NCBI GenBank assembly: GCA_964017185.1
Contig: OZ024873.1
Coordinates: forward strand, 49,524,760-49,588,759
Source: Rugalucina vietnamica
Taxonomy: Eukaryota; Mollusca; Bivalvia; Lucinida; Lucinidae
Direction: 5' to 3'
DNA: 64,000 bases
Shown: positions 4,482 through 47,519 of the stretch, piece by piece
Layout: the number at the start of each line of letters is the position of its first letter
How positions within the stretch are numbered: the first letter of the stretch is position 1
Notes under the pieces: generated by a model
Databases searched by the model: none
Told to the model about the DNA's origin: nothing
The model's input: only the letters and a program-made list of their open reading frames with translations
Translations under genes and position numbers: made by a program

Positions 4482-4510
4482 TTATTTCTTGTACATGAGC
4501 ATCGTCATTT
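4482..4510 (-). CDS. Locus B possible last exon: QMTMLMYKK-stop
   Basis: Acceptor ttatcttctttcag is good. In phase 1 the reading is QMTMLMYKK and TAA. In phase 2 it would be a longer, more acidic tail (NDDAHVQEITGEE), so an unseen exon between 4511 and 6328 could change the frame. AATAAA at 4272-4277 (minus) lies about 210 nt beyond. Confidence 0.45.
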
Positions 4511-47000: not shown

Positions 47001-47519
47001 TTGTATGCATGTTTTTATGAATACAATTACTAGAATGTCCTTTGCGATAACTTCGTTCAATAAATTCACTTTGTCCTAATTTTCATAAGAATTAAACTGA
47101 CACATTGGCTTATAGCTAGGCGATGAAATAAAATATATGGGAAAATTAAGTATTGTCAGAAAACACGAAATAGGATTTTTTTCTTAGCTTTTAAAAATAT
47201 CTAAAATTGTTCCTAACATTTTTATGTGTATAATTTAGCACTATACTTTAATGTAAATAAAGGCAACGTTGCTTAGTCTTTTAATATTTATTCATTTAAA
47301 AGGCAAGTGAGAATAGAATTACAGGTGATAGATACCGGAAGTTACATGTACCATTCGAAAAAGCTCAACATCTGCCATTATTGAAAAGAAAACCTTTATC
47401 CAGAACAAAAATGTCAGTTAATTGCATTTCATCTATATCATAGTTATACATCTTACCGGAACAGACAGTGCTACCCCGGACAACATTAACACCAAAGACA
47501 GAACTTTCTGGAACCCCAT
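28932..47519 (-). CDS. Locus A: secreted Gly/Tyr-rich microexon gene, long form
   Basis: I do not recognise the family by name. Eleven exons read in transcription order: 47519-47457, 46366-46312, 44558-44538, 43937-43020, 42482-42468, 41077-41039, 38519-38493, 36865-36851, 36484-36425, 30074-30048 and 29047-28932. They sum to 1356 nt (452 codons with stop, 451 aa). Each has a pyrimidine-rich AG acceptor and a GT donor close to consensus, and the frame stays open through every junction. The protein has a signal peptide, a charged Lys/Arg linker (TAKR), a Cys-containing patch, about 53-residue Gly/Tyr/Trp repeats, a second Cys cluster, and a non-repetitive C-terminal part ending in a basic helix-like tail (QALKDLKKMVENRKRELQK). 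An extracellular structural matrix role is inferred from composition alone. A shorter form ends at 42913 inside the large exon. Which exons are joined in life needs RNA. Confidence 0.72.
29107..29357. mobile_element. Palindromic MITE P1, copy 9
   Basis: Diverged copy just upstream of the terminal exon of locus A, in its last intron. Both ends are recognisable. Confidence 0.65.
30048..30074 (-). CDS. Locus A microexon: 27 nt, PYSTWKRT
   Basis: Acceptor gcctctttcag and donor gtaagt flank 27 nt in phase 1 to 1. The peptide (D)PYSTWKRT shares Pro-Tyr, Trp-Lys-Arg and the length with QPYGWKRA at 38493-38519. A duplicated microexon is the simplest reading. Confidence 0.75.
30080..32660. other. Large locus A intron
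   Basis: Apart from the 31661-31843 direct repeat I see no coding segment. The open frames are short and overlap. Confidence 0.4.
31661..31843 (+). repeat. Direct repeat, two about 83-bp copies
   Basis: gcgcggtcaaagcattcata and gcgcggtcaaagctttcata begin two similar units sharing gtcggttcatttcattccgt, about 99 bp apart. Confidence 0.85.
32723..32940 (+). mobile_element. Interspersed repeat family R7
   Basis: It starts next to a poly-A run (32670-32714) with caggaaaaggcacaatcaga and continues through cgtaagccgaatgagcagct and ggcacaaacagcacaaaaat. Other copies are at 38206-38450, 49070-49345 and 56150-56390. Confidence 0.65.
33000..34030 (+). repeat. Diverged repeat element
   Basis: It contains repeated gaaggatctcagttttaatt phrases and ends near cctattagcacaccttgtga, similar to the end of the 9.2-kb element. 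The 33050-33440 part recurs inverted at about 45320-45800. Confidence 0.5.
34751..36312. mobile_element. 1.56-kb foldback element with about 640-bp inverted arms
   Basis: The left arm begins caggtgcgttcacttattaa and the right arm ends with its complement. The arms pair through words such as cgatattcacaaataaattg, acaatcgtcactggcaagaa and caaattttcagccgtagtac. The two sides are clearly diverged. The outer base pairs are flanked by TA on both sides, compatible with a TA target duplication as in Tc1/mariner-type elements. The central 35361-35594 minus frame (77 codons) is not a recognised transposase. The element sits in an intron of locus A. Confidence 0.85.
36425..36484 (-). CDS. Locus A exon: 60 nt, LRKLFDYIEFEQPAGANTG
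   Basis: Acceptor gatctcttgtag and donor G|gtgagt flank 60 nt in phase 1 to 1. The peptide is amphipathic then Pro/Gly/Ala-rich. It is one of the longer downstream exons and reads as ordinary protein in one frame. Confidence 0.8.
36851..36865 (-). CDS. Locus A microexon: 15 nt, ILNE
   Basis: Acceptor atttctttcag and donor G|gtaagt flank 15 nt in phase 1 to 1, coding (H)ILNE. Both splice sites are strong, and the length matches the other 15-nt exons of the two loci. Confidence 0.75.
37206..37485 (+). mobile_element. Retroelement-associated coding fragment
   Basis: The frame from about 37206 reads IFRRHYELISKYNVGLKTLL, then LSEPELYGDLVYKFKK and FRKIITRYRRIGYKLNVMRQ, ending near FFNCTP. I recall very similar phrases from many repeated open frames in marine invertebrate genomes associated with non-LTR retroelements, but that assignment is from memory. 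It is truncated at both ends and lies within an intron of locus A on the opposite strand. Confidence 0.5.
37491..38067 (-). CDS. Uncharacterised basic, Asn/Lys-rich open frame
   Basis: A 143-codon minus frame (37922-37491) codes a basic N-terminal half (FRRGRGHAQRKALQKDTRAG) and an Asn/Lys/Pro-rich middle (KPENANAPNNNKPTNDKTA). Upstream, 38067-37964 is also open from an ATG (MSSSESKSDKFDLKRRMFKG) and ends at a donor-like CAACAG|gtaagg, but the gap to the next frame is only about 50 nt. Part of the frame could form a phase-1 exon of locus A (acceptor cataaaacag, donor GCCG|gtatgt). It could also be a retroelement remnant, since the opposite strand next to it is one. No function is assigned. 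Confidence 0.35.
38206..38450 (-). mobile_element. Interspersed repeat R7, inverted copy
   Basis: The reverse complement of the R7 words runs from the aaaatagcttctcattcggc area to the caatcagagaaagattcccg area. The called 27-nt locus A exon starts about 40 nt beyond it. Confidence 0.65.
38493..38519 (-). CDS. Locus A microexon: 27 nt, QPYGWKRA
   Basis: Acceptor gttatggtattccag and donor gtaagt flank 27 nt in phase 1 to 1, reading (E)QPYGWKRA. It resembles the 27-nt exon at 30048-30074 (PYSTWKRT), so one is probably a duplicate of the other. Confidence 0.75.
39238..39295. repeat. (GA)29 microsatellite
   Basis: A perfect GA run in a locus A intron. On the minus strand it is a (CT)n tract. Confidence 0.97.
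39300..41030. other. Locus A intron without recognisable features
   Basis: There is no exon with good paired splice sites in the phase used by the gene. A short TATATA run is at 40301. Confidence 0.4.
41039..41077 (-). CDS. Locus A microexon: 39 nt, AMNLEYEYQIGMY
   Basis: Acceptor tcaatttttag and donor G|gtaagt flank 39 nt in phase 1 to 1, coding (A)MNLEYEYQIGMY. The EIFHA-AMNLEY stretch is similar to ELFEKMRVNLNY in the 66-nt exon of locus B. This suggests the two C-terminal regions are homologous although cut differently into exons. Confidence 0.75.
41264..41290 (-). other. Possible 3-nt microexon or decoy splice pair
   Basis: On the minus strand ctttttttttccaag is followed after only three bases (ACC) by gtgagtat. 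Both sites look strong and three bases would keep phase 1. It may equally be a chance or decoy pair. It lies between two called exons of locus A. Confidence 0.2.
41960..42250. mobile_element. Interspersed repeat R5 copy
   Basis: It contains ctatggttatgtcgggacat, ccacctgggcagggtttaga and gcggttaaccagtaattaga. Confidence 0.6.
42468..42482 (-). CDS. Locus A microexon: 15 nt, EIFHA
   Basis: Acceptor cgtttttcag and donor gtatgt flank 15 nt in phase 1 to 1. Joined to the 43020 donor it reads Glu-Ile-Phe-His-Ala after KKAYQKVE. It lies only 430 nt past the short-form stop. Confidence 0.65.
42913..43937 (-). CDS. Locus A exon 4: Gly/Tyr-rich repeat exon, short-form 3' end
   Basis: The acceptor is ctctttacag at 43938 and the frame continues GTG-GCC-AAA (VAKLKANRDHK). 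The exon starts with a basic stretch, then a Cys/Tyr patch (YCDCSYGYYQWEDCYDECFGG). Gly/Tyr/Ser/Trp repeats follow, with a 53-residue unit (159 nt) containing YNYWGGSGGQGWGSTGYGN and YDPYAGWYSGSG. A second Cys cluster (CTCYDP, EYCWSYCGF) closes the repeat region. If unspliced it runs to a TAG at 42913-42915, giving a 387-aa protein with exons 1-3. An AATAAA lies about 140 nt beyond (42770-42775, minus). An internal donor at 43019-43014 (GAAG|gtaaac) would instead end the exon in phase 1 after 918 nt. A 172-aa minus frame and several plus frames here are shadows. Confidence 0.85.
43188..43660 (-). repeat. Three near-identical 159-nt coding repeats in locus A exon 4
   Basis: The plus-strand word aatagcccatcgatccgta recurs at 43182, 43341 and 43500, exactly 159 nt apart, with only a few substitutions between units. 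The period is 53 codons, so repeat number can change without a frameshift. Shorter Gly-rich units, each beginning with a near-identical GGSGAGGYGGYDPYAG block, sit further upstream (43600-43750). Near identity points to recent duplication or ongoing homogenisation. Confidence 0.85.
44244..44520. mobile_element. Palindromic MITE P1, copy 10
   Basis: The inner palindrome 44342-44416 and both ends are well preserved. It ends 12 bp from the donor of the 21-nt exon of locus A. Confidence 0.8.
44538..44558 (-). CDS. Locus A exon 3: 21-nt microexon
   Basis: Acceptor cttttgttacag and donor gtaagt flank 21 nt that read AEALKDL with the phase-1 base from exon 2. Phase is 1 to 1. Locus B has a 21-nt exon of the same phase coding AEIWKRL, sharing Ala-Glu and Leu at the same positions. 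A palindromic MITE lies immediately downstream in transcription (44244-44520). Confidence 0.85.
45320..45800 (-). repeat. Inverted copy of the 33-kb repeat
   Basis: It contains aactgagatcctttatgagc, tcgactactaaagtctcgt and ccgccacacggcacaacacc, the complement of the 33050-33440 sequence. It holds an internal direct repeat about 390 bp apart. Confidence 0.65.
46040..46330 (+). repeat. Repeat-derived open frame
   Basis: The frame includes SVADLEGVRVDCLTPPPPL, a phrase I recall from many repeat-derived frames in marine invertebrates. It overlaps the locus A exon 2 on the other strand, so it is not treated as a gene. A run of ten C lies at 46167-46177. Confidence 0.3.
46312..46366 (-). CDS. Locus A exon 2: charged linker
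   Basis: A 55-nt exon with acceptor tttttcag and donor gtaggaat. It enters in phase 0 and leaves in phase 1, coding VSENDKKDAATQSKTAKR. The final Lys-Arg is a possible furin-like processing site in a secreted precursor. It is the counterpart of the 34-nt exon of locus B, which also ends in Arg. Confidence 0.82.
46400..47450. other. Locus A intron 1
   Basis: It contains a short direct repeat (gaccacgatgcaaaagaagc at 46640 and 46694). I see nothing else. Confidence 0.45.
47457..47519 (-). CDS. Locus A exon 1: signal peptide
   Basis: A 63-nt exon encodes 21 residues, MGFQKVLSLVLMLSGVAL then SVP, a classic signal peptide with a hydrophobic core and a small residue (Ser) at the likely cleavage site. 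It ends in phase 0 at CCG|gtaag. The start is the first ATG of the frame and matches the length and Met-Gly start of exon 1 in locus B, which supports common ancestry. A longer overlapping minus frame (47547-47365) reads through the donor and is a shadow. Confidence 0.85.

Follow-up and report, generated by a model that had tools for sequence, protein, structure and literature searches.

Two neighbouring bivalve genes combining phase-1 microexons with a large Gly/Tyr repeat exon: exon anatomy and a possible terminal-exon switch

A stretch of 64,000 nucleotides (nt) of the lucinid bivalve Rugalucina vietnamica (contig OZ024873.1, positions 49,524,760 to 49,588,759), hereafter called the window, carries on its minus strand two neighbouring predicted genes, A (47519-28932) and B (20633-4482), that share a common plan: a 63-nt signal-peptide exon, a charged exon running from phase 0 to phase 1, a 21-nt microexon, a large Gly/Tyr exon and a string of short exons, referred to here as the tail. 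The full model of gene A has 12 exons and encodes 546 amino acids (aa), that of gene B has 15 exons encoding 468 aa in a single open frame, and all 21 internal exons that follow exon 2 (nine in A and twelve in B, the 21-nt and large exons being counted) begin and end in phase 1 (1-1 in what follows). The guanine-cytosine (GC) content of the window is ~35-43% in steps of 4 kilobases (kb) and dispersed repeats are numerous. The minus strand was read directly over 1-7000, 9001-17100, 20701-28000, 28001-40000 and 40001-48000 and the remainder through scripts and tool outputs; splice sites were scored in bits with matrices that represent a general animal consensus and were not trained on the source organism.

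The first exon of A (47457-47519; 63 nt) encodes the signal peptide MGFQKVLSLVLMLSGVALSVP, ends in phase 0 and has a donor of 9.9 bits; that of B (20571-20633; 63 nt) likewise encodes a signal peptide and ends in phase 0, with a donor of 6.9 bits, both putative peptides having been recognized by reading the hydrophobic 21-aa first exons. The second exons run from phase 0 to phase 1 and measure 55 nt in A (46312-46366; charged, with a C-terminal KR; acceptor 12.9, donor 8.8) and 34 nt in B (18958-18991; acceptor 6.5, donor 8.4). They are followed by 21-nt exons of type 1-1 that align with each other and encode AEALKDL in A (44538-44558; acceptor 9.6, donor 9.1) and AEIWKRL in B (18543-18563; acceptor 8.8, donor 5.4). 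When the first 71 residues of A are aligned with the first 54 of B, the score is matched by only 1 of 2000 shuffles, and the junctions (marked by a slash) coincide at three places, namely SVP/VSE with SLP/SKK, KR/AEALKDL with QR/AEIWKRL, and directly after the heptapeptide. Alignment and junctions together provide good evidence both for the paralogy of A and B and for the front exons, so that the two paralogous minus-strand loci and the shared front design put forward in a preliminary description of this DNA are found again in the rebuilt genes. The segment 19916-19875, although open 1-1, was set aside because exon 2 already occupies that place ahead of exon 3 in B.

The large exon of A in its spliced form (43020-43937; 918 nt, 1-1; acceptor 8.6, donor 7.3 at AAG/gtaaac) encodes in order a charged stretch, KR, a Cys motif, a Gly/Tyr/Trp repeat, a second Cys motif and a helix-like end. 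Its counterpart in B (16860-17684; 825 nt, 1-1; acceptor 5.2) encodes KK, YNTGSG repeats and a helix-like end, and is bounded by a GC-AG donor (TTG/gcaagt) that reaches 8.6 bits if scored as GT. Both exons can also be read through as terminal exons, that of A (42913-43937) yielding a short product of 387 aa with the stop at 42913 and an AATAAA at 42775, that of B (16852-17684) a short product of 316 aa with an AATAAA at 16827, 24 nt past the stop; the TAA stop of the latter sits within the GC donor, whose intron side reads gcaagtaa. KR or KK occurs three times directly ahead of an aromatic-rich part, which suggests that propeptide cleavage may take place at these dibasic sites. The two Cys motifs of A were also considered as repeats of each other, a reading that was dropped because 384 of 2000 shuffles aligned as well. 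An AT dinucleotide repeated perfectly 67 times (17710-17843) lies just upstream, in the sense of the gene, of the acceptor of the large exon of B.

The tail of B consists of ten internal exons, all of type 1-1 and all returned by the blind chain search described below, and a terminal exon. In gene order, with acceptor and donor scores in bits, the internal exons are: 16196-16213 (18 nt, VLLSDF; 5.7 and 8.6), 15766-15780 (15 nt, ELIAG; 6.4 and 5.6), 14222-14329 (108 nt, LLEERIDEGHGHGTDDKCGLVQGMLPYDETYMYNGS; 10.6 and 8.4), 13746-13811 (66 nt, DGQLELFEKMRVNLNYLAMTIN; 8.7 and 5.8), where a rival donor at 13780 would leave 32 nt, 13327-13347 (21 nt, HCSGNAE; 7.0 and 5.3), apparently absent from the earlier model, 12958-13005 (48 nt, VITQYAVDYLINMAND; 8.2 and 9.3), 12015-12110 (96 nt, AYFNLDPNIGVAELESAYNYEKDYAVNNYGSV; 5.6 and 4.8), 10000-10014 (15 nt, WPPEC; 12.8 and 5.6), 9665-9679 (15 nt, RDVIT; 10.8 and 12.0) and 6329-6361 (33 nt, AFDCNMRYLHE; 14.7 and 7.8). 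The terminal exon (4482-4510; 29 nt; acceptor 10.6) encodes QMTMLMYKK and a stop. Once spliced, this tail amounts to ~155 aa with four Cys. One intron of this tail contains a tandem array of about nine 166-nt copies (7460-8966).

The tail of A, whose introns reach 6350 nt, is made up of seven internal exons, likewise 1-1, and a terminal one. Three of them belong to the blind chains, namely 42468-42482 (15 nt, EIFHA; acceptor 10.5, donor 10.1), 41039-41077 (39 nt, AMNLEYEYQIGMY; 7.0 and 10.5) and 36851-36865 (15 nt, DILNE; 7.4 and 12.0). The exon at 36425-36484 (60 nt, ALRKLFDYIEFEQPAGANTG) has a weak acceptor (4.6) and a donor of 11.7, the stronger acceptor at 36512 leaving no open frame. The remaining four form two pairs. 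The first pair joins 38493-38519 (27 nt, EQPYGWKRA; 8.3 and 8.4), which appears in the blind chain at penalty 14 alone, in a version of 135 nt, to 37541-37825 (285 nt, LSQFRRGRGHAQRKALQKD...GKRYYSGSPNTYQVEIMFA; weak acceptor of 3.1, donor 8.5), which is new with respect to the preliminary description; the second joins 30048-30074 (27 nt, DPYSTWKRT; 6.3 and 9.0), met in the blind chains only partially or in phase 0, to the terminal exon 28932-29047 (116 nt with the stop, ISRIKQRGHGRQALKDLKKMVENRKRELQKNKQTKLNE; acceptor 10.2), where an AATAAA at 28936 overlaps the stop. EQPYGWKRA/LSQFRRGRGHAQRKALQKD... (38519 and 37825) and DPYSTWKRT/ISRIKQRGHGRQALKDLKKMVENRKREL... (30074 and 29047) align with a score equalled by 2 of 2000 shuffles, and the junction falls at the same residue, directly after WKR plus one residue. 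An attempt to view all the WKR-type microexons of A and B with their neighbours as one repeated module failed, the other five pairings being equalled by 106, 861, 555, 299 and 421 of 2000 shuffles; since these are at chance level, only one duplicated exon pair is claimed. Homology among the 15-nt exons and their neighbours is suggestive at most (130, 371 and 243 of 5000 shuffles as good), and 24147-23971, considered as a paralogous exon on a local score of 38, was dropped as lying in a degenerate repeat region. The segment 36366-36310, open 1-1, was also set aside as an exon of A, because its end falls in an arm of a foldback element (34740-36323; 242-nt arms, 91% complementary) that occupies a long intron of this tail. 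Two inverted copies of a dispersed repeat of ~150 nt (~38453-38300 and ~32870-32690) bracket part of tail A, and further pieces of it lie near 27.0 and 26.3 kb, all as judged by eye.

The preliminary description gave the lengths of four products but no list of exons, and all four lengths are reproduced by the rebuilt models: 387 aa corresponds to A ending in the large exon, 451 aa to the long form of A without the 285-nt exon, 316 aa to B ending in the large exon and 186 aa to B without either the large exon or 13347-13327. The rebuilt exons are therefore taken to be those of that description, namely 21, 918, 15, 39, 27, 15, 60 and 27 nt in A and, leaving aside the large exon, 21, 18, 15, 108, 66, 48, 96, 15, 15 and 33 nt in B. 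The statement that eighteen internal exons are 1-1 and multiples of three holds for 18 of 18 (eight in A, ten in B). The preliminary description was thus largely right but lacked 37825-37541 (285 nt) and the duplicated pair in A and, apparently, 13347-13327 (21 nt) in B; the lengths that it named are reproduced except that the 15-nt exons number five and not four.

How far this regularity is a property of the DNA and not of the reader was assessed by methods blind to it. In the first, candidates of 9-120 nt were picked by splice sites only (each site at least 6 bits, sum at least 15, non-overlapping), irrespective of frame and of divisibility by three. Over the two gene spans on the minus strand this procedure returned 12 candidates, 11 of them multiples of three and 10 open 1-1, the two exceptions being exon 2 of A (55 nt, for which 0-to-1 is expected) and a 108-nt segment at 33794-33687 whose one open phase is 0; the latter, the single strong rule-breaker after exon 2, lies near what appears by eye to be a dispersed repeat. 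The plus strand of the same spans, taken as control, gave 9 candidates with 2 multiples of three and 1 open 1-1, and 100 third-order Markov shuffles gave means of 7.68, 2.62 and 0.81, respectively (maxima 15, 7 and 4). With a looser cut (sum at least 13, sites at least 5) the candidates rose to 26, comprising 15 called exons and 11 uncalled segments of which 2 are open 1-1; looser splice thresholds thus admit noise.

The second method was a chain search in which all phases were permitted, the score combined splice score and residue make-up, sites below 3.5 bits were cut and 40 shuffles served as reference. For tail B a penalty of 12 returned ten of the ten called exons and nothing extra, all 1-1, with a score of 56.1 as against at most 29.9 in the 40 shuffles, while a penalty of 14 returned six of the ten, again with nothing extra (38.7 against 14.2 for the best shuffle). 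For tail A a penalty of 14 gave five of the seven called exons, one of them in phase 0, plus two uncalled pieces (31.6 against 18.5 for the best shuffle); the 285-nt exon was beyond the reach of the search because its acceptor lies below the cut. Plus-strand chains, like those from shuffles, contained on average less than one exon of the 1-1 type. On the outcome of both methods the support is strong for tail B and moderate for tail A. The bias conceded in the preliminary description, which had set aside pairs breaking the phase rule, is answered for tail B, returned exactly by phase-blind tests, and only in part for tail A.

The coding signal points the same way. The residue make-up of tail B scores 11.6 as against -18.5 +/- 7.9 for random stop-free draws, and that of tail A 20.9 as against -26.4 +/- 6.8, none of 1000 draws being as high in either case; when tail A is deprived of its two longest exons, the six small ones are reached by 10 of 1000 draws. 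The GC content of the tails is 44%, that of tail B at codon positions 1 to 3 being 0.51, 0.29 and 0.53. Exon anatomy, phases, coding signal and the paralogy of A and B we accordingly regard as established; to judge from the sequence, the exon anatomy is real for both gene fronts and tail B and likely so for tail A.

As a whole, the reading that we favour and hold to be somewhat probable is that A and B are tandem paralogous genes for secreted precursors, equipped with frame-neutral cassette exons and a terminal-exon switch. The precursor would consist, in order, of a signal peptide, a short charged stretch, a dibasic site (KR or KK), a Gly/Tyr-rich block and a C-terminal part supplied by small exons, and its role may be structural or adhesive. 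With all junctions after exon 2 in phase 1, the large repeat exon and each microexon would be frame-neutral cassettes; since the large exons measure 918 and 825 nt and are 1-1, skipping either of them would also preserve the frame. Because both are symmetric and also run into a stop and an AATAAA, a terminal-exon switch is proposed as the main control. Were the weak splice choice at the 3' end of the large exon left unused, the transcript would end at the AATAAA beyond it and give a repeat-only protein of 387 or 316 aa; were the large exon spliced, the tail would be joined in frame to give a long protein (~546 or ~468 aa) made of the repeat and a further domain; and were the large exon skipped, the tail would be joined in frame to give a repeat-less, tail-only protein. 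That exons can drop out without frame loss, as the preliminary description had it, is possible by arithmetic, the exons of tail A being the less well supported since blind tests return them only in part.

Several observations weigh against this reading. The tails are tied to exons 1-4 by frame, strand and order alone. At a penalty of 12 the chain search on tail A found four of the seven called exons together with six uncalled pieces, at a score (40.2) below that of the best of 40 shuffles (45.6). The donor choice at both large exons (43020 in A, 16860 in B) depends on the phase rule: A has rival donors at 42988 (7.0 bits, phase 0), close to the 7.3 of 43020, and at 43149 (5.5, phase 1), and in B the best GT donor of the large exon, 16952 (8.2), is in phase 2, the phase-1 option requiring the GC donor. 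The remaining module comparisons within A and B are no better than shuffles. Finally, no homologue of A or B emerged from protein, profile, PDB or viral-contig searches, in collections that may hold few animal proteins. Specifically, no match with E <= 10 was obtained for the B tail region of the long product (101 candidates sharing words), and none with E <= 1 for B lacking its large exon (71 candidates) or, among the matches listed, for the short product of A (8000 scored); the PDB sequence search gave best E values of 0.4 for the B tail and 1.5 for exons 1-4 of A, the viral contigs five pattern matches and no relatives, and Pfam, for three predicted pieces, only matches below cut-off (best E 0.023).

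The alternative that survives best, and that falls not far short of being probable, accepts the exons and their phase 1 but takes nearly all of them as constitutive, their uniform phase being a relic of the duplication and shuffling of 1-1 modules that is usual in secreted animal proteins. The duplicated exon pair within A fits this explanation, as do the strong splice sites at many microexons, which suit constitutive use, and the link between symmetrical modules and metazoan exon shuffling and exon duplication made in PMC6335736. On the other hand, the weak or GC donor with a nearby AATAAA at both large exons suggests at least one regulated choice, and many of the tail B exons, which are too short for modules, cut what appears to be a single folded part.

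It is rather doubtful that tail A is instead a decaying duplicate, in which real exon remnants, split by repeats, are incompletely used. Introns as long as those described above, one with the foldback element, the weak sites of 3.1 and 4.6 bits and the partial blind recovery would all be expected of such a remnant, whereas the single open frame shared by eight of eight tail exons, the terminal one included, and the protein-like residue make-up, unequalled in 1000 draws, would not.

We consider it unlikely that the large exons are the last of A and B and that the downstream microexon strings are small independent genes, each starting with its own first exon, even though a stop and an AATAAA follow each large exon, the junction in B requires a GC donor and the tail spans contain weak signal-peptide-like first exons, all in phase 1 (e.g., at 37202, 32955, 16174 and 11205). 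The donors of these candidates score 5.0-6.9 bits, as against 9.9 and 6.9 for the called ones, and their sequences are unrelated to the called signal exons, whereas each large exon has a phase-1 donor that fits the frame of the tail. That the tails belong to the same transcripts as exons 1-4 is an inference.

That the tail exons are splice-like noise collected by a reader who favours phase 1 is highly improbable and, for tail B, largely refuted, since phase-blind tests return the same exons there with a clear excess over controls, despite the admitted discarding of rule-breaking pairs, the abundance of such pairs at loose thresholds and a tail A that at penalty 12 falls inside the shuffle range.

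The design of tandem precursors with cassette exons invites comparison with the micro-exon genes (MEGs) of flatworms, to which the preliminary description had likened it. MEGs encode secreted products with a signal peptide, and their numerous small exons, each a multiple of three, can be left out without loss of frame (PMC4350168, PMC5825161, PMC7653826); according to PMC4350168 they appear restricted to platyhelminths. The working criteria of PMC7653826 are at least seven exons, at least half of the exons shorter than 70 nt and divisible by three, and at least four microexons in succession; A and B have 12 and 15 exons, of which 8 and 10, respectively, are of the required size, and the longest microexon run is three in both full models, although A without the 285-nt exon, as in the preliminary description, has a run of six, which would suffice. 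Furthermore, ~80% of the coding region of MEGs lies in symmetric exons of 6-36 nt, according to PMC5825161, whereas exons of up to 36 nt make up 6% of A (105 of 1641 nt) and 10% of B (138 of 1407 nt). Both genes share the signal-peptide feature, as read from their hydrophobic 21-aa first exons, and the likeness in design stands, the run of four and the ~80% share being what the full models lack; in addition, unlike the schistosome and tapeworm genes, A and B are dominated by their Gly/Tyr repeat exons (918 and 825 nt) and belong to a host group other than flatworms. A and B would work like flatworm MEGs but are not classed as such. That the MEG design has arisen in a lineage other than flatworms, in a structural protein that is secreted and has a removable repeat block, in which a weak or GC donor over a stop would switch between repeat-only, repeat-plus-domain and domain-only forms and a gland would tune its material by splicing, is a speculation that we regard as improbable on present evidence.

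Other secreted proteins offer partial parallels. Tropoelastin, a repeat protein secreted into the extracellular space, also has small symmetric exons open to in-frame skipping; it carries its repeats in alternating small exons, whereas those of A and B lie in one giant exon. In the genes of secretory calcium-binding phosphoproteins, such as amelogenin, which are secreted matrix proteins, a signal-peptide exon is followed by short symmetric exons; the exon order is like that of A and B, but the phase is 0 instead of 1. Signal peptides and Gly/Tyr-rich repeats, as in A and B, also characterize molluscan matrix, shell and byssal proteins (shematrins, thread matrix proteins); no Pfam family matched. 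Searches of the literature for mollusc matrix genes with microexons or symmetric exons turned up no such gene, judged by titles and the opening lines of abstracts. The design of A and B is unusual. If transcripts agree, a protein rich in repeats and probably structural would share the micro-exon plan that flatworms are best known to use for secreted proteins, its repeat block being itself a cassette, which would offer a direct test of whether splicing tunes secreted materials. Most of such a gene would escape standard gene finders, since exons of 15 to 33 nt are easily overlooked.

Elsewhere in the window, Rfam gave no match at gathering scores and no tRNA was found. Pfam, run on seven open reading frames (ORFs) of the window, gave a single match, DUF6589, outside A and B (E 2.1e-6, 27.2 bits against a cut-off of 27); it falls among several adjoining minus-strand ORFs at 58319-62647 that look like a broken mobile-element-like gene. 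A minisatellite of ~41-nt units with plus-strand open frames occupies 53733-55758. A signal-peptide-like first-exon candidate on the minus strand at 2877-2969 (93 nt, phase 0, donor 7.9) is probably due to chance because it lies within a dispersed-repeat copy (family D8). Another dispersed repeat, with a palindromic core around GTTAGAACCGCCTC, has eight copies in one listed family, including 189-251, 4756-4818, 5564-5626, 12346-12408 and 44314-44376, and a repeat with the pattern GCTCACCTGAGCCGAAGGCTCAC, which we take, as a lead only, to be common in bivalve genomes, was seen by eye.

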